A stretch of 13,855 nucleotides of DNA from Deltaproteobacteria bacterium. Its GTDB lineage: Bacteria > Desulfobacterota > Desulfobacteria > Desulfobacterales > Desulfatibacillaceae. Shown one piece after another: positions 5,982 through 13,855 of the stretch. The notes beneath the pieces are model-generated. The model was given only the letters and a program-made list of their open reading frames with translations, did not search any database and was not told the DNA's origin. The stretch is from contig JAFDHW010000018.1 of the NCBI GenBank assembly GCA_019308705.1, positions 1 to 13,855 of the forward strand, read 5' to 3'. The position numbers and the translations under genes are program-made. Position 1 is the first letter of the stretch, and every line of letters begins with the position of its first letter.

Positions 5982-6136
5982 GGTCCCGTTCGCTTGATAG
6001 GAGATTGTCGCGGCATTATGGTGGATGTTCCACGGCAACCCTCTCCGGGTCAAGAGGCGGGGTAAGGAATATCCCACACCCATGCGCCGGGGCCGGGCTT
6101 GCCTTTCTTCCCGAACGGCCGGGAGCGGAATCCTTG

Positions 6137-7525
6137 ATGTCCCTGAAAAAGAAGCAGATCCTTGAACTCGCCATCGAGGGAGCGGCCTTCGGCGCCCTGG
6201 GCGTGGCCCGGGTGGACGGCATGGCCGTGTTCGTGGAGGGCGCGGTGCCCGGCGACGTGGTGTCCGCCGTGGTCATCAAGAAGAAAAAGGCCTGGGCGCG
6301 GGCCCGCACCCTGGAGGTGCTCACCCCCTCGCCGGACCGGGTGGAGCCCCCATGCCCGTGGTCCCGCTGGTGCGGGGGGTGCAAGTGGCAGTTCTTGGAT
6401 TACGAAAAGCAGGTGCGGTACAAGGCCGCCCAGGTGGCCGAGTCTTTGGAGCGCATCGGGGGCCTGTCCGGGTTCGATATGCTGCCCCCCATTCCGGCCC
6501 CGGAGATCTGGGGCTACCGGAACAAGATGGAATTCTCCTGCGCGGACCGGCGCTGGCTTCTGCCCGAGGAACTGGGCGAAGGCGGCCCGCCCAAGGAGTT
6601 CGCCCTGGGGCTCCACGTGCCCGGCACCTTCGACAAGGTGCTGGACATTTCCCGCTGCCTGCTCCAGACCGAGGAGGCCAACGCCATCCTGGCCACGGTC
6701 CGCGAACGCGTCCTCGCCTCCGGCCTGCCCGCCTATGGCCTGCGCACCCACGAGGGCTTCTGGCGTTTCGTGGTCATCCGCCGGTCCGTGGCCGAGGACC
6801 GCTACCTGGTGAACCTGGTCACCGCGTGGGAGGAGACGCCTGTCCTTTTCTCCATGGCCGAAAAGATCATGGAAGCCCACCCCTCCATCGCTGGGGTGGT
6901 GAACAACGTGTCCGCCAAGAAATCCGGCGTGGCCGTGGGCGACTACGAAATCCCCCTGGCCGGCTCCCCCACCCTGGTGGACGCCATCGGCCCCTTCCGG
7001 TTCACCGTGTCGGCCAACTCCTTTTTCCAGACCAACACCCGCCAGGCCGAAACCCTCTACGGCGTGGTCTCGGACTTCGCCGCCCTCACCGGCTCCGAAC
7101 GCGTCCTGGACCTGTATTCCGGCACCGGCACCATCCCCATCTGGCTGTCGGCGGACGCAGGGGAAGTCCTTGGCGTGGAGCTCGTCGAAAGCGCGGTGAA
7201 GGACGCGGTCGAAAACTGCGTGCAAAACGGCGTGGACAACTGCAAGTTTCTCCTGGGAGACATCCGCGACGTGCTGCCCTCCCTGGATTTCACCCCCGAC
7301 GTCCTGGTGGCGGACCCCCCGCGCTCCGGCATGCACCCCAAGGTCGTGGCCGCCATCAACAACCTGGCTGCGCCCAAGGTCGTGTTCGTGTCCTGCAACC
7401 CCGCCACCGCCGCCCGGGACCTCGCCCTCATGAGCGACACCTACCGCATAAAAACCGTCCAACCCCTGGACATGTTCCCCCACACCCACCACGTGGAAAT
7501 GGTGGCCCTGCTGGAGAAGAGGTAG
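6137..7525 (+). CDS. rlmD: 23S rRNA (uracil-5-)-methyltransferase RlmD
   Basis: This SAM-dependent RNA m5U methyltransferase of the TrmA/RumA family has 462 residues. It starts with a TRAM RNA-binding domain (about 1-62). Four cysteines fit the [4Fe-4S] site of RlmD: C73, C79, C82 (PCPWSRWCGGC) and C174 (SRCLLQ). The catalytic domain has FFQTN (296-300), the SAM motif DLYSGTGTIP (325-334), VADPPRSG (391-398) and the catalytic Cys C420 in FVSCNPAT. The likely target is U1939 of 23S rRNA, by family. RlmC/TrmA-like alternatives are less likely because of the TRAM domain plus cluster cysteines. The start at 6137 has GGGAG 11 bases upstream; the frame is open 132 bp further, but that stretch is not conserved-looking. 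Confidence 0.93.
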   Translation: MSLKKKQILELAIEGAAFGALGVARVDGMAVFVEGAVPGDVVSAVVIKKKKAWARARTLEVLTPSPDRVEPPCPWSRWCGGCKWQFLDYEKQVRYKAAQVAESLERIGGLSGFDMLPPIPAPEIWGYRNKMEFSCADRRWLLPEELGEGGPPKEFALGLHVPGTFDKVLDISRCLLQTEEANAILATVRERVLASGLPAYGLRTHEGFWRFVVIRRSVAEDRYLVNLVTAWEETPVLFSMAEKIMEAHPSIAGVVNNVSAKKSGVAVGDYEIPLAGSPTLVDAIGPFRFTVSANSFFQTNTRQAETLYGVVSDFAALTGSERVLDLYSGTGTIPIWLSADAGEVLGVELVESAVKDAVENCVQNGVDNCKFLLGDIRDVLPSLDFTPDVLVADPPRSGMHPKVVAAINNLAAPKVVFVSCNPATAARDLALMSDTYRIKTVQPLDMFPHTHHVEMVALLEKR

Positions 7526-7890
7526 GGAGAGGAGGACGCCGGCCGGGTAACGATGCCCTTTGCCGGCCCCCCCTTGCACCTGCTGTATCATGTATTAATC
7601 TTTCCCGGTGAGGGCGGGCCGGGGTCGTGGAAGGCCCGCCTTGGCGGACAAAACCATACGATTTCGCGTGCTTGGCAAGTCAAGTCGCGTTCCGGCCCCA
7701 CCTTCGCCGACAGGATTTTGTAAGAGCGGCCGGTGGGGGTTACCTACCGTCTCCCCTCCCGCTCCCGGTGGGAAAACGCCCGGTTTCTGCCCTCCGAGAG
7801 GGCCATGGGACGAACAGGTTGAGGATGCTGTAAGCCGATACAACGCCAATAAATACGTTGACATAGGTTGATTCTGGAGTTTTCGGGCAA
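7526..7890. other. 365-bp intergenic region with several hairpins
   Basis: No convincing gene is present; short open frames on both strands have proline/glycine/arginine-rich, chance-like products. Foldbacks: GCCGGC at 7538-7543 and 7562-7567 (loop 18); GGCGGGCC/GGCCCGCC at 7613-7620 and 7633-7640 (loop 12); GGTGGG/CCTACC at 7732-7737 and 7743-7748 (loop 5, one G-T pair); GCCCTC/GAGGGC at 7789-7794 and 7798-7803 (loop CGA). The first two may end rlmD transcription, although no T run follows. The last two would be in the leader of the RelA-like gene. The final 100 bp is AT-richer and should contain its promoter, but I cannot assign -35/-10 boxes. Confidence 0.5.
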
Positions 7891-9387
7891 ATGGGACGAG
7901 ATTCTCTGGAATTGGCTGATGACAGCCTATTTATTGACAAAATCCAACGCACGTTCGAGGCGGCTGACGCCGACCTGCTGACCCGGGCGCACGCTTTTTC
8001 TTCGAAAAAAGCATGCAATGGTAATTCAACAGGTTACAAGGCCGCCAATCTGCTTCTTGCCCAGGACGCCGACGCGATCACCATCGCCGGCGCCCTATTG
8101 GCCCCTCTTTTGTGGCAAGGCCTGGCCGATTCCGATGCTATCCTGGAACGCTTCGGGCCGCTTGTCGCCGCCACGATCGAAGGCCTGAGCGCATCTTTTA
8201 ATCCCCGCGCAGGCACGCATCCACGCCAAAGGGGAAACATCCATGTCCTGTTGGCGTCCATGGACGGCGTTCCCCGCAGGGCCATCCTGTTCATCACCTT
8301 TCGCCTGTTGGCTTTGGAATACGCGACCGGTTCGCATGAGGCGGCCGCCCGGGAGATGGCCCGGGAAACCCTCGATCTCCTGGTGCCCATCGCCAACCGC
8401 CTGAGCTTAGGCGACCTGCGGCGCCGGTTGGAGGATACCTGCTTCCGCATCCTGGACCCGGCGGGCTATGCATACCTGAAGGAAAACGTCGCCCCGATCC
8501 AGGCCGAGGATGACAAGTGCCTGGAAATCCTGCTGCAAGGTGTCCATCAACTGCTGGAAAACAACGGCATTGCCGGGCGGATCCAGGGCAGGACCAAGAG
8601 CCTTTACGCCATTCACCGTAAAATGACGCGCACGGGCAAGACGCTGGAAGAGATCATGGACCGCGTAGGCTTGCGGGTGATCGTGGCGTCGGTACCCGAG
8701 TGTTACACGGTCCTGGGCTTGTTGCACACCCATTTCAAGCCGATTCCAGGCACTTTCGACGACTACATCGGCCTTCCCAAGGACAACGGCTACCAGTCCT
8801 TGCACACGTGCGTCTACCCCGTGCGCGAAATCTCCCACAAACCCATCGAGTTTCAAGTGCGCACCGAGTTGATGCACATGGAGGCCGAGCACGGCACGGC
8901 GGCCCATTGGCGGTACAAAAACGAGGCGGCGGCCGTAGAGCGCGACCATCAGCGGGCGCAATGGATGAAAGGGCTCGTGCGCCAGCACCAGCAGGCGAAC
9001 AGCAACGAGGCGTTTATCGAACTGCTGCACCGGCAGGTGTTCCAGGATCATCTGGTGGTTTTTGGGAACGGCGGCCGCATCGTCCGCCTGGCCGAAAAGG
9101 CCACGGTCCGGGATTACCTGACCATTACCAACATCGAGGTTCCCGAAGGCTCGGTTGTGAAAGTAAACGGTCAGGCCGCCGCCTTGGATCGCCTTCTCCG
9201 GGATGGGGATTCTATAGAGGTCCTGGCCGGTGGCGTCCCGGCCGGTCCCGGCGCGGGGAAAGCCCGTGATGCCGACAGCCTCTTCGGCCGCGGCGCGCGG
9301 CATCCATCCGGCGGGAATTCGAACGGCACGGCGCCTGCGGGTTTCCCTCCCTTCCCGGACAAATCACAGGAGAACAAACATGCTTGA
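7891..9387 (+). CDS. Short RelA/SpoT homologue: dead HD, (p)ppGpp synthetase, TGS
   Basis: This is a 498-residue RSH protein predicted to transfer pyrophosphate from ATP to GDP/GTP. The N-terminal HD-like domain (about 20-190) has lost its metal ligands: the first His is Y49 and the HD pair is A71-P72, so no hydrolase activity is expected. The synthetase domain (about 225-345) keeps GRTKSLYAIHRKM, D257, NGYQSLHT (299-306) and E320 in EFQVRT. At the position of the RXKD (bifunctional) or EXDD (RelA) motif it has T288-F-D-D291, RelA-like in its two aspartates. A TGS domain follows (about 386-447), then a Gly/Pro-rich tail of about 50 residues. The helical, zinc-finger and ACT domains of full RelA/SpoT are absent. 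GGAG precedes the start by 12 bases. It overlaps the next gene by 8 bp, suggesting coupling. Confidence 0.88.
   Translation: MGRDSLELADDSLFIDKIQRTFEAADADLLTRAHAFSSKKACNGNSTGYKAANLLLAQDADAITIAGALLAPLLWQGLADSDAILERFGPLVAATIEGLSASFNPRAGTHPRQRGNIHVLLASMDGVPRRAILFITFRLLALEYATGSHEAAAREMARETLDLLVPIANRLSLGDLRRRLEDTCFRILDPAGYAYLKENVAPIQAEDDKCLEILLQGVHQLLENNGIAGRIQGRTKSLYAIHRKMTRTGKTLEEIMDRVGLRVIVASVPECYTVLGLLHTHFKPIPGTFDDYIGLPKDNGYQSLHTCVYPVREISHKPIEFQVRTELMHMEAEHGTAAHWRYKNEAAAVERDHQRAQWMKGLVRQHQQANSNEAFIELLHRQVFQDHLVVFGNGGRIVRLAEKATVRDYLTITNIEVPEGSVVKVNGQAAALDRLLRDGDSIEVLAGGVPAGPGAGKARDADSLFGRGARHPSGGNSNGTAPAGFPPFPDKSQENKHA
9368..9373 (+). promoter_or_regulatory. Ribosome binding site of the GT-glycosidase fusion
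   Basis: AGGAGA lies inside the last codons of the RelA-like gene, six bases before the ATG at 9380. It decides the start, since the frame is open further upstream. Confidence 0.7.
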
Positions 9388-11671
9388 ACCCGGTAAATAC
9401 CCCCATCCCAAAAAGATCGCGTTGATCGGCAATTACCTGCCGCGCCAGTGCGGCATCGCCACCTTCACGAACGATCTGCTGACGGCCCTGTCCGGCGAAA
9501 ACCCCGGCGGGGAACATTTCGTCGTGGCCATGAACGATATTCCCGAGGGATATCGGTATCCAAGCCAGGTGCGGTTCGAGATCAAGCAGCGGGTCCTGGA
9601 GGAGTACCGGTTGGCGGCGGATTTTTTGAACATGAACCGGGTGGAGGTGGTTTGTCTTCAGCACGAATTCGGGATTTTCGGCGGCGAGAACGGCGCCCAC
9701 ATCCTGGATTTGCTCGGCAGCTTGCGCATGCCCCTGGTGAGCACCCTGCACACAGTGCTTCAAGCGCCGACGCCCGGCCAGATGGCCGTGACCAAGCGCA
9801 TCGCCCAACTCTCCGACCGCCTGGTGGTGATGAGCCGCAAGGCGGAACAGCTTCTCCAAGAAGTCTACGGCGTTCCGGCCGAAAAAATCGCCATGATCCA
9901 CCACGGCATTCCCGACGTGCCGTTCGTCGATCCCAATTTCTACAAGGACCAATACGGGGTCGAGGGCCGCAAAGTGATTCTGACCTTCGGGCTGCTTTCT
10001 CCCGGCAAGGGCATCGAGACGATGATCGACGCATTGCCGGCGGTGGTCAAAGAGCATCCGCAAGTCGTATACATCGTGTTGGGCGCGACCCATCCCCACG
10101 TGAAAAAGCAACAAGGGGAATCCTACCGCCTTTCGCTTCAGCGCCGCTCGAGGGAACTGGGCGTCGGGGACCATGTGATCTTTCACAACCGCTTCGTCGA
10201 CTTGAAAGAGCTGTGCGAGTTTCTCGGAGCGGCGGACATCTATGTCACGCCCTATCTGAACCAGGAGCAGATCGTCTCGGGAACCCTGGCCTACGCCCTG
10301 GGCAGCGGCAAGGCGACGGTTTCCACCCCTTACTGGTATGCCGAGGAGATGCTGGCCGAGGGCCGCGGCCGGATCGTGCCCTTCCAAGACCCGGCGGCCT
10401 TGGCCGCCCAGGTCAACGACCTCTTCACCCACGAAGTGGAGCGGCACGCCATGCGCAAGCGGGCCTATACCTTTTGCCGGTCCATGGTCTGGAAGGAGGT
10501 GGCGCGGCAGTACCTCGATGTTTTCAGCCAAGTCAAACGGGAAAGGGAAAGCGCCCCGAGGCCCGTTTTCCGCGCCAGGACCATGGCGTCCGTCCCGCGT
10601 GAAATCCCGCAGCCGAAGCTGGATCACATCATCCGCCTCACAGACGACGTGGGCATTTTGCAACACGCCAAGTTCATCGTGCCGGACCGCTATCACGGCT
10701 ATTGCACGGACGACAACGCCAGGGCGCTGATCGCCGTGCTGATGGCGCGCGACATGCTGGCCGACGGAGAAGCCATCACCAATTTGGCCTGCACCTATAT
10801 CAGCTTTCTGCACCACGCCTTCAACGAGGAAAACGGCCGGTTCCGCAATTTCATGGGGTACGACCGCAGGTGGCTGGAAGAAGCCGGCTCCGAGGACAGC
10901 CACGGACGTGCGATATGGGGGCTGGGCCAGGCGGTGGCCCTGGCGAAATCGGAGGACATCCGGGCGGCGGCCCAGGCGGTGTTTGAAAAGGCGCTGCCCG
11001 CCGTGGCGGATTTCGTCTGGCCAAGGGCCTGGGCCTTTGCCCTGGTCGGCATCCATGCCTATCTGAGCAAGTTCGGCGGCGACAGCGAGGTGCGGCGTAT
11101 CCGTGAAAAGCTGGCGAACAAGCTGTTGCGCCTGTACCGCGACAACGCCTCCGACGACTGGCCCTGGATCGAGGACAAGCTGACCTATGCCAACGGGAAA
11201 ATACCCCAAGCCCTGATCCTGTCCGGCCGCTGGCAGGACAAGGAGGAGATGCTCGACGCGGGGCTTCGCAGCCTGGAATGGCTTATGGAGATCCAAACCG
11301 ACCCCAAGGGGCATTTCGTGCCGGTGGGCAACAAGGGCTGGTATGTCCGTGGCGGCGAAAAGGCGCGTTTTGATCAGCAACCCATCGAGGCGCTGGATAT
11401 GATCGAGGCCTGCCGCGAGGCCTACGAGGCGACCAGCGACGCCAAGTGGTTCTCCCACGCCCAGCGCTGCCTGGAGTGGTTCCTGGGCCGAAACGACTTG
11501 AACGCGCCCCTGTACGACCACAAGTCCGGCGGTTGCTGCGACGGCCTGCAGGCCGACGGCTCCAACCGCAACCAGGGCGCGGAGTCGACCCTGGTCTGTT
11601 TTCTGTCGCTGCTCGCCCTCAATCAAATGCGCGGCCGTCAGATCTCGGTGGAGGCCACGGCTACGGCATAG
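9380..11671 (+). CDS. GT-B glycosyltransferase fused to an (alpha/alpha)6 glycosidase-like domain
   Basis: This 763-residue protein has two domains. The N-terminal GT-B glycosyltransferase (about 10-385, GT4-like) has the start motif NYLPRQCGIATF (18-29), the acceptor-side QHEFGIFGG (94-102), and the donor-side FGLLSPGKGIE (203-213). Where most GT4 enzymes have EX7E it reads E296...SGTLAYAL, so the second Glu is Ala. A linker (386-410) leads to a repeated alpha-helical domain (about 411-755) resembling six-hairpin glycosidases, with acid-rich motifs GYCTDDNAR (440-448), SEDSHGRAIWGLG (504-516), DDWPWIEDKLTYANG (592-606), FDQQPIEA (664-671) and NQGAEST (731-737). It has no signal peptide, so it is probably cytoplasmic. 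It could build a glycan and trim or hold it. The sugar is not known; the GH130 neighbour suggests mannose. Confidence 0.85.
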   Translation: MLEPGKYPHPKKIALIGNYLPRQCGIATFTNDLLTALSGENPGGEHFVVAMNDIPEGYRYPSQVRFEIKQRVLEEYRLAADFLNMNRVEVVCLQHEFGIFGGENGAHILDLLGSLRMPLVSTLHTVLQAPTPGQMAVTKRIAQLSDRLVVMSRKAEQLLQEVYGVPAEKIAMIHHGIPDVPFVDPNFYKDQYGVEGRKVILTFGLLSPGKGIETMIDALPAVVKEHPQVVYIVLGATHPHVKKQQGESYRLSLQRRSRELGVGDHVIFHNRFVDLKELCEFLGAADIYVTPYLNQEQIVSGTLAYALGSGKATVSTPYWYAEEMLAEGRGRIVPFQDPAALAAQVNDLFTHEVERHAMRKRAYTFCRSMVWKEVARQYLDVFSQVKRERESAPRPVFRARTMASVPREIPQPKLDHIIRLTDDVGILQHAKFIVPDRYHGYCTDDNARALIAVLMARDMLADGEAITNLACTYISFLHHAFNEENGRFRNFMGYDRRWLEEAGSEDSHGRAIWGLGQAVALAKSEDIRAAAQAVFEKALPAVADFVWPRAWAFALVGIHAYLSKFGGDSEVRRIREKLANKLLRLYRDNASDDWPWIEDKLTYANGKIPQALILSGRWQDKEEMLDAGLRSLEWLMEIQTDPKGHFVPVGNKGWYVRGGEKARFDQQPIEALDMIEACREAYEATSDAKWFSHAQRCLEWFLGRNDLNAPLYDHKSGGCCDGLQADGSNRNQGAESTLVCFLSLLALNQMRGRQISVEATATA

Positions 11672-11704
11672 CAAGGTCTTGGATGCAACGGGAGATAACG
11701 GCGC

Positions 11705-12931
11705 ATGACAAACAACCCCATCGTCATGATCAGCTCCTATCCGCCCAGGCTGTGCGGCATCGCCACCTTTTGCGAGGAGGCGCGGGAGTTCATTCAAAAG
11801 GCCAACCCGGACCGCGAGGTGCTGGTCATCAGCCACATCGACGGCGGGGGAGAAGGGGTGTTTCCCATCATCGACCTGCAACGGTCCGACTGGTGGAAGC
11901 CCGTGGCCGAAAAAATCGAGAAACTGGACCCCTACGCCGTTCATATCGAGCACGAGTACGGGCTTTACGAATACAAGGACCAGCGAGGCATAGGGGACGG
12001 CAACGACGGATTTCTCGACCTGCTGGAGGCCATCGGCAACTTTCCCATCGTGGTGGAGCCCCATACCATCCACGGACGGCTGCGGGATTTCGAGGCGGAT
12101 TTTATTTATAAGTTGACCCAGCGAAGCCATGTGGTGCTGTTCAAGTGTCATTACCAAAAGTGGCGGCTGGACTGGACGTTCCAGGGCAAGGGGTGGCCCA
12201 CGCCGCGCAACATCATGGTGGTGCCCCACGGCGCGCGCCCGGACAAGCGCTGGGGCGTGCATGAAATACCGGCGCTGCGAAAAGAATTCGGGCTGGAAGA
12301 GATCGGGCTGGCCGACCACGTGGTGGGAATGATCGGGTGGATTCAGTCCAACAAGCGCTGGGACATCCTGATTTCCATGTGGGAGGATATCCATAACGAG
12401 ATCAAGTCGCTCAATGGCCAGGATTGGGACCTGCTGGCCGCCGGCGCCATGCGCGACCCGAATCACCGCAGGGATTACGAGGATTGGAAGTCGGGTGTCC
12501 AGGTCCTGGCCGGCAAGGGACTGGCCCATTACCACGAGTTCATTCCGCGGGGCGACGACTATTACAAAATAATGGCGGTCTGCGATTTCATCGTCCTGCC
12601 CACCATCGACGAAACCCAGTCCGGCACCCTGGCGCGCATCATCGCGCTGAACAAACCCTATATCACCACCGCGCCCATGGAAGGGCTGACCGCCCAAACC
12701 TTGGAAAGCGAAGGCGGCCTGTTGTTCACCACCAAGAAGATGCTGCGCCGGAAGGTGATCGAGCTGGCGACGAATGAGACGCTGCGCCTGGAGTTGGGTG
12801 AAAACTTGAAACGCTACCTCGATAATGTGGTCTGCTGGGAAGTGGTGGCCCGGCAGTACAACGAGGCCTACAAGCTGGCGCGCAAGGCTGCCAACTCCGG
12901 CCGGCCCGTTGTCTTGGACCTGGAATTTTAA
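11705..12931 (+). CDS. Second GT-B glycosyltransferase, related to the upstream GT domain
   Basis: This 408-residue protein is a probable cytoplasmic glycosyltransferase. It shares motifs with the N-terminal domain of the preceding gene: SYPPRLCGIATF (11-22), EHEYGLYEY (82-90), SGTLA (306-310) and a C-terminal WEVVARQY (378-385). It therefore probably arose by duplication or belongs to the same subfamily. Nucleotide-sugar binding is expected in the second half (VGMIGWIQSNKRWD, 207-220; DFIVLPTIDETQSG, 294-307). As in its paralogue, the second Glu of the GT4 EX7E motif is absent. It has no membrane segment or signal peptide. GGGAG lies 10 bases upstream of the ATG, and 33 bp separate it from the fusion gene, so one transcript is likely. 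Donor and acceptor cannot be read from the sequence. Confidence 0.82.
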   Translation: MTNNPIVMISSYPPRLCGIATFCEEAREFIQKANPDREVLVISHIDGGGEGVFPIIDLQRSDWWKPVAEKIEKLDPYAVHIEHEYGLYEYKDQRGIGDGNDGFLDLLEAIGNFPIVVEPHTIHGRLRDFEADFIYKLTQRSHVVLFKCHYQKWRLDWTFQGKGWPTPRNIMVVPHGARPDKRWGVHEIPALRKEFGLEEIGLADHVVGMIGWIQSNKRWDILISMWEDIHNEIKSLNGQDWDLLAAGAMRDPNHRRDYEDWKSGVQVLAGKGLAHYHEFIPRGDDYYKIMAVCDFIVLPTIDETQSGTLARIIALNKPYITTAPMEGLTAQTLESEGGLLFTTKKMLRRKVIELATNETLRLELGENLKRYLDNVVCWEVVARQYNEAYKLARKAANSGRPVVLDLEF

Positions 12932-12940
12932 ACCGGGGCG

Positions 12941-12980
12941 TAGCCCGGATTATTCAGGAGTTCGAAGGGTGAAAAATTCA
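12941..12980 (+). repeat. Shortened copy 2 of the 1-140 repeat
   Basis: TAGCCCGGATTATTCA (12941-12956) matches the minus-strand TAACCCGGATTATTCA of copy 1 at 15 of 16 bases. GAGTTCGAAGGGTGAA and the bases after it (12958 onward) match copy 1's other end block at about 20 of 25. About 90 bp present between the blocks in copy 1 is missing here. It lies 10 bp after the glycosyltransferase stop, in the 122-bp gap before the GH130 gene. CCGGG/CCCGG (12933-12937 and 12944-12948) can form a small hairpin at its edge. Confidence 0.6.
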
Positions 12981-13053
12981 GCGGAAGGTGTGATCAAAAG
13001 TCCGGGTCCGAATAGCGATAGAAACGCAAGGTGCAAAGCGAGGAATGCGATAG

Positions 13054-13855
13054 ATGAGTGACGCGAGATTCAACGAGCTGTTCATACGGCACAAAGACAA
13101 CCCCGTCATCCGGGCCGAGGATATCCCCTACCAGGCTAATTCGGTGTTCAACGCCGGCGTCGCCCAAGTCGATGGAGAGACTTTGTTGCTGATGCGCGTG
13201 GAGGACCGCCGGGGCCTTTCCCATCTTACGGCGGCCCGAAGCCGGGACGGAATCACCGGCTGGCGCATCGATGCAAGGCCCACGCTTTCCTCCAGCCCGG
13301 AAAGCCATCCCGAGGAGATCTGGGGGATAGAAGATCCCCGCATCACACGCATCGAGGCCCTGGATTTGTGGGCCGTGGTGTATACGGCCTATTCCATGTA
13401 CGGCCCGCTGGTTTCCCTGGCCACCACGCGGGATTTTAAAACCTTCGAGCGCAAGGGCATCGTCATGCCGCCCGAAGACAAGAACGCGGCGCTGTTCCCG
13501 GTGCAGTTCAACGGCCGCTGGGCCATGCTTCATCGGCCGGTTCCCGGATTCGCCGAGGTCGGCGCGCATATCTGGATCTCCTTCAGCCCGGACTTGAAGC
13601 ATTGGGGCGACCATCAGATACTCCTGCCCGCCCGCAAGGGCGGCTGGTGGGACGCCAACAAGGTCGGCCTTTCGTCGCCGCCGCTACGCACCGAAAAAGG
13701 CTGGTTGATCCTCTACCACGGCGTTCGCAACACGGCCGGAGGCTGCATCTACCGCCTGGGTCTGGCCCTTCTGGACCTGGAAGACCCGACCCGTCTGCTG
13801 GCCCGGTCCGACGAATGGGTTTTCGCGCCGGAAGAAGACTACGAGGTGATCGGCG
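13054..13855 (+). CDS. GH130 beta-mannoside phosphorylase/hydrolase (3' end cut by window)
   Basis: The first 267 residues of a five-bladed beta-propeller GH130 enzyme are present; the family is usually 300-350 residues, so the C-terminus is missing. The catalytic Asp is D94 in GIEDPRIT, with upstream LLMRVED (45-51) and NSVFNAG (29-35) in the sugar site. AALFPVQFNGRWAMLHRP (145-162), WISFSPDLKHWG (174-185), NKVGLSSPP (202-210) and LYHGV (220-224) are family signatures. R161, K203 and H222 are basic residues where phosphorylases bind phosphate, which favours reversible phosphorolysis of beta-mannosides to mannose 1-phosphate over hydrolysis. The linkage cannot be told. It starts at 13054 with AGGA about 10 bases upstream, 122 bp after the glycosyltransferase and downstream of repeat copy 2. 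Confidence 0.9.
   Translation, partial: MSDARFNELFIRHKDNPVIRAEDIPYQANSVFNAGVAQVDGETLLLMRVEDRRGLSHLTAARSRDGITGWRIDARPTLSSSPESHPEEIWGIEDPRITRIEALDLWAVVYTAYSMYGPLVSLATTRDFKTFERKGIVMPPEDKNAALFPVQFNGRWAMLHRPVPGFAEVGAHIWISFSPDLKHWGDHQILLPARKGGWWDANKVGLSSPPLRTEKGWLILYHGVRNTAGGCIYRLGLALLDLEDPTRLLARSDEWVFAPEEDYEVIG

Follow-up and report, generated by a model that had tools for sequence, protein, structure and literature searches.

The stretch of DNA analyzed here (the window) is contig JAFDHW010000018.1, a complete 13,855-bp contig of a 2.84-Mb metagenome-assembled genome that we designate G000; other genomes and loci are labeled in the same manner where they need to be told apart. It carries four consecutive genes on the plus strand: a variant RelA/SpoT homologue (RSH), two glycosyltransferases (GT1 and GT2), and a GH130 enzyme. 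RSH and GT1 overlap by 8 bp, while gaps of 33 bp and 122 bp separate GT1 from GT2 and GT2 from GH130, exactly as described in an earlier interpretation made without database searches (the sequence-only reading). Comparison with other genomes indicates that this arrangement exceeds chance. With moderate confidence, we propose that a probably ribosome-independent, hydrolysis-dead alarmone synthetase heads mobile stress-tolerance islands in which a mannose glycan operon is the commonest cargo. The features of the window are listed in Table 1.

Table 1. Features of the window, with their positions, strand, and the basis of each assignment.
Feature	Position	Strand	Basis
Variant RSH: pseudo-HD ~1-210, synthetase ~210-350, weak TGS/ThiS-like end 396-445	7891..9387	+	Profile searches, alignment
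GT1: GT4-type glycosyltransferase ~1-386 and a C-terminal half without family	9380..11671	+	Pfam
GT2: second GT4-type glycosyltransferase	11705..12931	+	Pfam
GH130 mannoside phosphorylase-like enzyme, truncated at the contig end	13054..13855	+	Pfam
RumA/TrmA-like gene, left boundary of the island; backbone common to genus and family	6134..7525	+	Pfam, genome comparison
Imperfect hairpin spanning the RSH start codon, 33 pairs, conserved	7847..7936	+	Comparative folding
Terminator-like alternative stem-loop within the 3' arm of the hairpin, then a U-rich stretch	7914..7927	+	Terminator scan
Short XRE/HTH_3-like regulator gene, decayed remnant in two pieces	7624..7807	+	Comparison with G707, G333, G101

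The first protein matches RelA_SpoT (PF04607; E-value 1.4e-35, 122 bits against a cut-off of 27) and HD_4 (5.9e-09, above the cut-off), and the fourth matches Glyco_hydro_130 (PF04041; 3.9e-39, 134.9 bits against a cut-off of 26). GT1 and GT2 both carry GT4-type domains above the Pfam cut-off. These matches agree with the second glycosyltransferase and the GH130 enzyme named in the sequence-only reading. Its description of GT1 as a fusion of a glycosyltransferase with a glycosidase holds for the first part but not for the second, because the C-terminal half of this 763-aa protein matches no Pfam family at E ≤ 0.001; the sole lead on this half is a weak PDB sequence match (7tem, residues 603-749, E 7e-6). 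GT1 is very strongly conserved and widespread: all 8000 scored candidates match at E ≤ 1e-3, and the best 120 of them share 72% identity or more across no less than 93% of the length. The window GH130, a protein cut by the contig end, scores 206.7 and 180.1 bits against NCBIfam equivalogs with cut-offs of 550 and 450, respectively, and the complete second GH130 of G122 also falls under those cut-offs (241.8 and 206.6 bits).

The variant RSH and its distribution

The “short” RelA-type synthetase of the sequence-only reading proved to be a truncated long RSH of 498 aa with a degenerate HD domain, which aligns with long RSHs over residues 51-455. Across 30 aligned rows of homologues, 50-100% identical, none has H-D at the two positions of the hydrolase motif, which read A/S/V (A in 28 rows) and P/Q/A/K (P in 25 rows). 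The synthetase positions K236, D257, R262, Y301-T306, E320, Q322, R324, T325, and H339 are invariant in 30/30 rows; of these, K236, D257, R262, Y301, E320, Q322, and R324, together with R234, are taken to match known catalytic and nucleotide-binding residues. Other motif positions are nearly so (G233 in 27/30; R234, S237, F321, A338, and W340 in 29/30) or variable (T235, V259, L261, V323, H334, and T336). The substrate stretch reads T-F-D-D in every row, keeping the acidic D-D with T in place of the E of the EXDD motif of RelA, where EXDD replaces RXKD (PMC3153485). Selection on the gene is purifying, with dN well below dS and most strongly so in the synthetase part, where dN is 0.04-0.18 (28 pairs, eight genes); dS, for pairs in which the estimate converged, is 0.39-2.9. 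No part of the protein is more constrained than the synthetase domain.

At the other end of the protein, the ThiS/TGS-like match reaches 21.5 bits, under the Pfam cut-off of 22.5, and domain profile searches found no match after about residue 450 to the helical, zinc-finger/CC, or ACT parts. Because the TGS-like end is below the cut-off and nothing is matched beyond it, the ribosome-reading part of RelA/Rel is missing; against TIGR00691 the protein scores 277 bits, where the cut-off is 499. A small alarmone synthetase (SAS) is ruled out by the N-terminal HD_4 match, a bifunctional Rel/SpoT by the absence of H-D from all 30 rows, and a full-length RelA by the length and by the C-terminus, which gives no match to the helical, CC/zinc-finger, and ACT parts and a sub-cut-off one to TGS. 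From these features, the variant RSH should make (p)ppGpp and be unable to break it down.

In the phylogenetic tree, all 17 variant rows fall into a single clade (support 100/100) that is separate from 32 other RSHs; the tree left out three rows shorter than 330 aa (the variants of G211 and G147 and the Rel of G333). Distribution of the clade is patchy. It was found in 12 of 389 genomes of the class (E ≤ 1e-90), and a phylum sample of 395 adds four variant genomes (six matches, less the window itself and an ordinary Rel of 798 aa). The family of G707 contributes two further carriers, or 4/46 in all, the family of G101 has 2/30, and Desulfopila sp. IMCC35008 also carries the variant, for a total of 19 loci. 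Cultured carriers include Desulfobacter hydrogenophilus as well as this Desulfopila. In these searches, variant and ordinary Rel were separated by score and frame length, with thresholds that may miss broken or diverged copies. The reading frame of the variant is interrupted in G333, G147, and G775 (L146, L152, L165), by assembly error or decay.

A PF04607 search showed that a housekeeping Rel is also present in 17/18 variant genomes. The exception is G000, which has no PF04607 match besides the window RSH. We rejected the idea that this RSH is by nature the sole one of its organism; an assembly gap in G000 is likelier, because a housekeeping Rel is held by G001, of the same genus, and by all 17 other variant genomes.

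Neighboring genes and transfer of the island

GT1 lies directly 3' of the variant RSH in 13/19 loci belonging to eight families, often with an overlap of a few bases (G000, G122, G238, G101, G333, G211, G136, G038, G147, G707, G774, G775, and G445, with GT1 interrupted in G238). The adjacency is thus not confined to one genus or an accident of it, and the link drawn in the sequence-only reading between a putative alarmone synthetase and an operon that makes and recycles a mannose glycan is upheld. Independently of these loci, the protein clusters listed for RSH and GT1 have 19 contig sizes in common, against 0-2 at shifted values (119/120 RSH rows typed). A fusion of the two proteins in G136 and G038 was rejected, as the coordinates place the genes in different frames. 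In G238, an insertion of about 4 kb divides the GT1 gene (L145 9413-16147).

The fullest operons, those of G122 and G707, run RSH-GT1-GT2-phosphomannomutase-GH130-GT with a mannose-6-phosphate-isomerase cupin-GH130-GDP-mannose pyrophosphorylase, and that of G707 continues into HSP20-HSP20-Cpn60, the last a second GroEL. In the window, GH130 follows GT2 with no phosphomannomutase in between.

Elsewhere the variant RSH adjoins other modules. It is followed by OtsB-OtsA (trehalose) in G656, with three HSP20-like genes on the opposite side; by MoxR/DUF58/VWA/Bat genes in G226, which also has Cpn60, and in G253 (domains were scanned in G226, and the G253 genes were assigned by similarity); and by HSP20 and CMAS in Desulfopila sp. 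IMCC35008. HSP20-like, GH15, and GT-like genes lie near the variant in G760, and the 3.5-kb contig of G236 has no GT1 on it. Two loci (L143 5296-17315 and L147 9038-18375) show RSH ahead of MoxR-DUF58-VWA-BatA/BatD-type genes, with Cpn60 between in L143. Within 9 kb, matches to HSP20, Cpn60, Ots, or GH130 occur at 18/18 variant loci but at only 1/78 ordinary Rel loci, a contrast favored by leaving out G236, by queries drawn from the variant loci, and by controls mostly from other phyla, and a count that ignores kinship among the 18 loci.

Conversely, GT1 also occurs without an RSH near it. It was found in 70/389 genomes of the class (E ≤ 1e-150), and none of 16 RSH-less GT1 loci, hand-picked rather than random and covering 13-20 kb each, shows an RSH near GT1. 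HSP20 or Cpn60 is present in 5/16 of these loci, and the mannose module therefore has its own tie to chaperones. The variant RSH is, as far as these neighborhoods indicate, an optional head of stress modules.

Evidence for horizontal transfer comes from contrasting degrees of identity. Between G122 and G707 the housekeeping Rel proteins are only 50% identical, whereas identity reaches 87% for the variant RSH, 89% for GT1, and 87-94% for GT2, PMM, both GH130s, GT3, and GMP; island proteins this similar in genomes whose Rel has diverged so far point to horizontal transfer. The reverse holds for G122 and G238, which share a genus, with 95% identity for the housekeeping Rel and only 69% for the variant RSH. 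In the tree, the variants of G333 and G707 are sisters, and the Rel of G707 groups with those of G760, G774, and G775 (the Rel of G333 was too short and was dropped). A low tendency to spread horizontally has been noted for the core long RSHs (PMC3153485). We found no plasmid or phage copies of the variant clade: identity is no higher than 34% among the rows listed (20 of 50 and 20 of 31 records) and stays below 60% in every record.

The left boundary of the island in the window can be placed by comparison with related genomes. Left of position 7525 lie unremarkable genes, for an S41 peptidase, an M23 peptidase, FtsX and FtsE on the minus strand, PyrE, an alpha/beta hydrolase, and the RumA-like methyltransferase (S41 and FtsX named by eye, the remainder by Pfam). 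The divergent hydrolase-RumA pair is kept in G001 (63% and 76%) and in G004, G005, and G007 of the family, and a DNA match to G001 running through the end of RumA stops there. No island gene is present on the 12.3-kb contig of G001, nor was a variant RSH or GT1 found genome-wide at the thresholds used. Since the pair is kept and the island genes are absent in G001, the contig is correctly assigned to its genome, with the RSH block apparently added; a mis-binned contig was rejected because the pair is common to G001, G004, G005, and G007. At other loci, the flanks include type I restriction genes (G707), an HNH gene (G101), and a sub-cut-off transposase match (G122). The HTH core of the XRE/HTH_3-like gene is open before RSH in G707, G333, and G101 and decayed in the window and G238, with no such gene at the other 13 of the 18 loci examined; the Pfam check of this gene covered the G707 copy.

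The element at the RSH start codon

About 90 nt around the RSH start codon can be aligned in nine loci, ahead of three different cargos: GT1, Cpn60/Bat (G226), and OtsB-OtsA (G656). Across six intact genes, synonymous codon identity at shared residues peaks, at 0.88, in the first of 45 ten-codon blocks (the next-highest value being 0.81); it is 0.76 in the second block and 0.60 in the remainder. In the RNAalifold prediction, the element forms a single long hairpin whose apical loop contains the start codon, with a weak Shine-Dalgarno-like stretch in a helix, and single folds agree with it in 8/9 loci. Pairing holds in 93.3% of 297 cells, compared with 30-49% in slid controls, and the sense strand folds more stably than the antisense strand in 9/9 loci, although in G147 by 1 kcal only. 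These models suggest that the hairpin likely controls translation.

The element reaches z values of -4.6 to -1.1 against dinucleotide shuffles. Of 50 surrounding tiles per locus, 17, 40, 36, 31, 11, 26, 44, 28, and 31 are at least as stable, and in 7/9 loci the element is not in the most stable half or is close to the middle. Stability as such therefore does not set the element apart in these genes. With a covariance model derived from the nine sequences, the element is found once per genome, at RSH, with a weak match in G775 (E 0.005); a further match in G333 (E 0.84) is at chance level. No Rfam match was found up to E 1 in 7400-8200, and promoter and terminator scans were at chance level (8 terminator-like sites against a shuffle mean of 6.9). 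In G085 (L210 9340-9401), a partial element lies about 130 nt upstream of Cpn60, beside what appears to be a remnant of an RSH N-terminus, with no variant RSH gene left.

A proposed role and its alternatives

In the proposed scheme, the product of the first gene would be a long RSH reduced to a monofunctional (p)ppGpp synthetase, and the gene would act as the head of a horizontally moving stress-tolerance island. As both the hydrolase site and the C-terminal ribosome-reading domains are lost, the alarmone would be made without a stalled ribosome and its breakdown left to the housekeeping Rel. The cargo in the window would be a mannose glycan cycle, in which the glycosyltransferases use GDP-mannose to make a mannose glycan, expected to be a beta-mannan, and GH130 phosphorylases recover mannose-1-phosphate, on which the GDP-mannose pyrophosphorylase of fuller copies acts. 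The start-codon hairpin probably keeps translation of the synthetase low until a signal arrives; under stress, a pulse of locally made alarmone would then slow growth, with the glycan and chaperones protecting the cell meanwhile. An alarmone made under stress and accompanied by protective genes is the best reading because of the neighboring genes and because heat raises (p)ppGpp in B. subtilis, where it has a part in thermo-resistance (PMC7098656).

Several observations weigh against this proposal. The variant occurs in few genomes, and interrupted copies exist (RSH in G333, G147, and G775; GT1 in G238), which makes the gene dispensable; within 9 kb, HSP20 is found at only 6/18 and Cpn60 at only 4/18 variant loci. 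Long RSHs are ribosome-activated, and we infer the loss of this activation solely from the missing domains. With respect to the hairpin, G147, whose 5' arm has diverged, does not fold in this way, and no two-sided change was seen. Column shuffles reach the observed pairing in 258/500 cases and the covariation score in 315/500, and since they do as well as the data, covariation gives the hairpin no support. Without G147, 25 changed cells keep the pairing and 9 break it, and transitions keep it in 19/23 cases against 41/66 expected. The covariance model finds no copy in 8/17 other variant genomes (one contig ends at the RSH start). A simple RNA thermometer was rejected as well: in the five sequences modeled, the ribosome site stays largely paired and hardly changes between 10 and 45 °C.

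The sequence-only reading had gone further, proposing that production and recycling of the mannose glycan are under specific control of the alarmone, or of RSH acting as a guanine-nucleotide sensor, by way of GDP-mannose supply. The position of GT1 directly after RSH in 13/19 loci, often with a short overlap, and the presence of GDP-mannose genes in the fuller operons would fit such control. However, the same clade also adjoins OtsB-OtsA, MoxR/Bat, and HSP20-CMAS modules, and the RSH of G226 shares 84% identity with the G122 protein, although no mannose genes lie in the 20 kb covered at its locus. GT1 is also far more frequent than the variant RSH in the class (70 against 12 of 389 genomes), and GT1 together with GH130 occurs without RSH, as in the 16 hand-picked loci. 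Because the partners of RSH are swapped between loci, glycan-specific control is weakened; it is unproven, and we consider it unlikely. At the opposite extreme, islands that gather stress and mobile genes might carry RSH as a passenger functionally unrelated to its neighbors, as the patchy distribution, the interrupted copies, and the restriction, HNH, and weak transposase matches at the flanks would allow. Such hitchhiking is hard to reconcile with the purifying selection on RSH, with a same-strand place before GT1 kept across eight families at short or overlapping spacing, and with the stress genes beside those copies without GT1 that could be examined, and we judge it improbable.

A different objection concerns the activity itself. 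Some relatives reuse RSH folds as a scaffold or as a pyrophosphokinase with another target, and the diverged N-terminal half of the variant and its TGS-like end under the Pfam cut-off are compatible with a function other than making an alarmone. The conservation of K236, D257, R262, Y301-T306, E320, Q322, R324, T325, and H339 in 30/30 rows, within the most constrained part of the protein, makes this role quite improbable. Compared with these alternatives, a synthetase that heads exchangeable stress modules agrees better with the conserved motifs and neighborhoods, and the RSH is a known kind of enzyme, here in a new genomic role.

Known systems share individual traits with the island. The variant RSH resembles Rel/RelA, above all the RelA of beta- and gamma-proteobacteria, in its intact synthetase motifs, degenerate HD domain, and a TFDD stretch similar to EXDD (PMC3153485), but it ends after a weak TGS-like stretch, forms a separate clade, and occurs as a second copy beside the housekeeping Rel in mobile stress islands. 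RshD, the name given to second Rel copies in four delta-proteobacteria that are possibly xenologues (Atkinson 2011, PMC3153485), is likewise a second long RSH of possible horizontal origin in related bacteria; in the passages of that article cited here it is labeled [HS] and is not among the truncated forms named. The Thermoanaerobacter cluster Teth514_1786-1789 encodes two beta-1,2-mannoside phosphorylases, a mannose-1-phosphate guanylyltransferase, and a GT4 (PMC4264767). GH130 enzymes of this kind act reversibly with alpha-mannose-1-phosphate (PMC4264767). As in the fullest islands, two GH130 genes there adjoin GDP-mannose pyrophosphorylase and GT4, and GDP-mannose salvage was proposed; in contrast, it has an ABC importer and GH5, and RSH, HSP20, and chaperonin are not among the 12 ORFs named in that part of the report (PMC4264767). 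In the passage cited from a further article, spoT is named beside ridA and recG (PMC10490939).

Closest in cargo is a Sphingobium plasmid typed as conjugative (NZ_CP022747.1; L195 5280-14163), which carries groL-ManC-M6PI-GT1-GH130-PMM, with a homologous GT1 that is 46.6% identical, followed by a response regulator. This alphaproteobacterial module differs in having no RSH and no second GT annotated. The transmissible locus of stress tolerance (tLST) of enterobacteria is, as here, a horizontally moved stress island with small HSPs, although its gene content is different, and we know of no alarmone synthetase in it. Open-licence literature on GH130/GT/HSP20, stress islands, GDP-mannose operons, and RSH with Desulfobacter yielded no description of such an RSH-headed island.

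A bolder version, which we offer only tentatively, is that the island brings its own ribosome-independent, hydrolysis-dead RSH as an interchangeable command gene for cargos such as mannose glycan, trehalose, small HSPs, and chaperonin, and that a start-codon hairpin of a new class keeps this gene closed until stress opens it, such that alarmone and protection would be acquired and switched on together. On the main proposal, some bacteria seem to take up a stress alarm bundled with its protective genes. A truncated long RSH traveling with chaperone, compatible-solute, and glycan genes would mean that mobile stress islands can extend the stringent response, and it offers a way to test directly how (p)ppGpp, proteotoxic stress, and a mannose glycan are connected in relatives of Desulfobacter.

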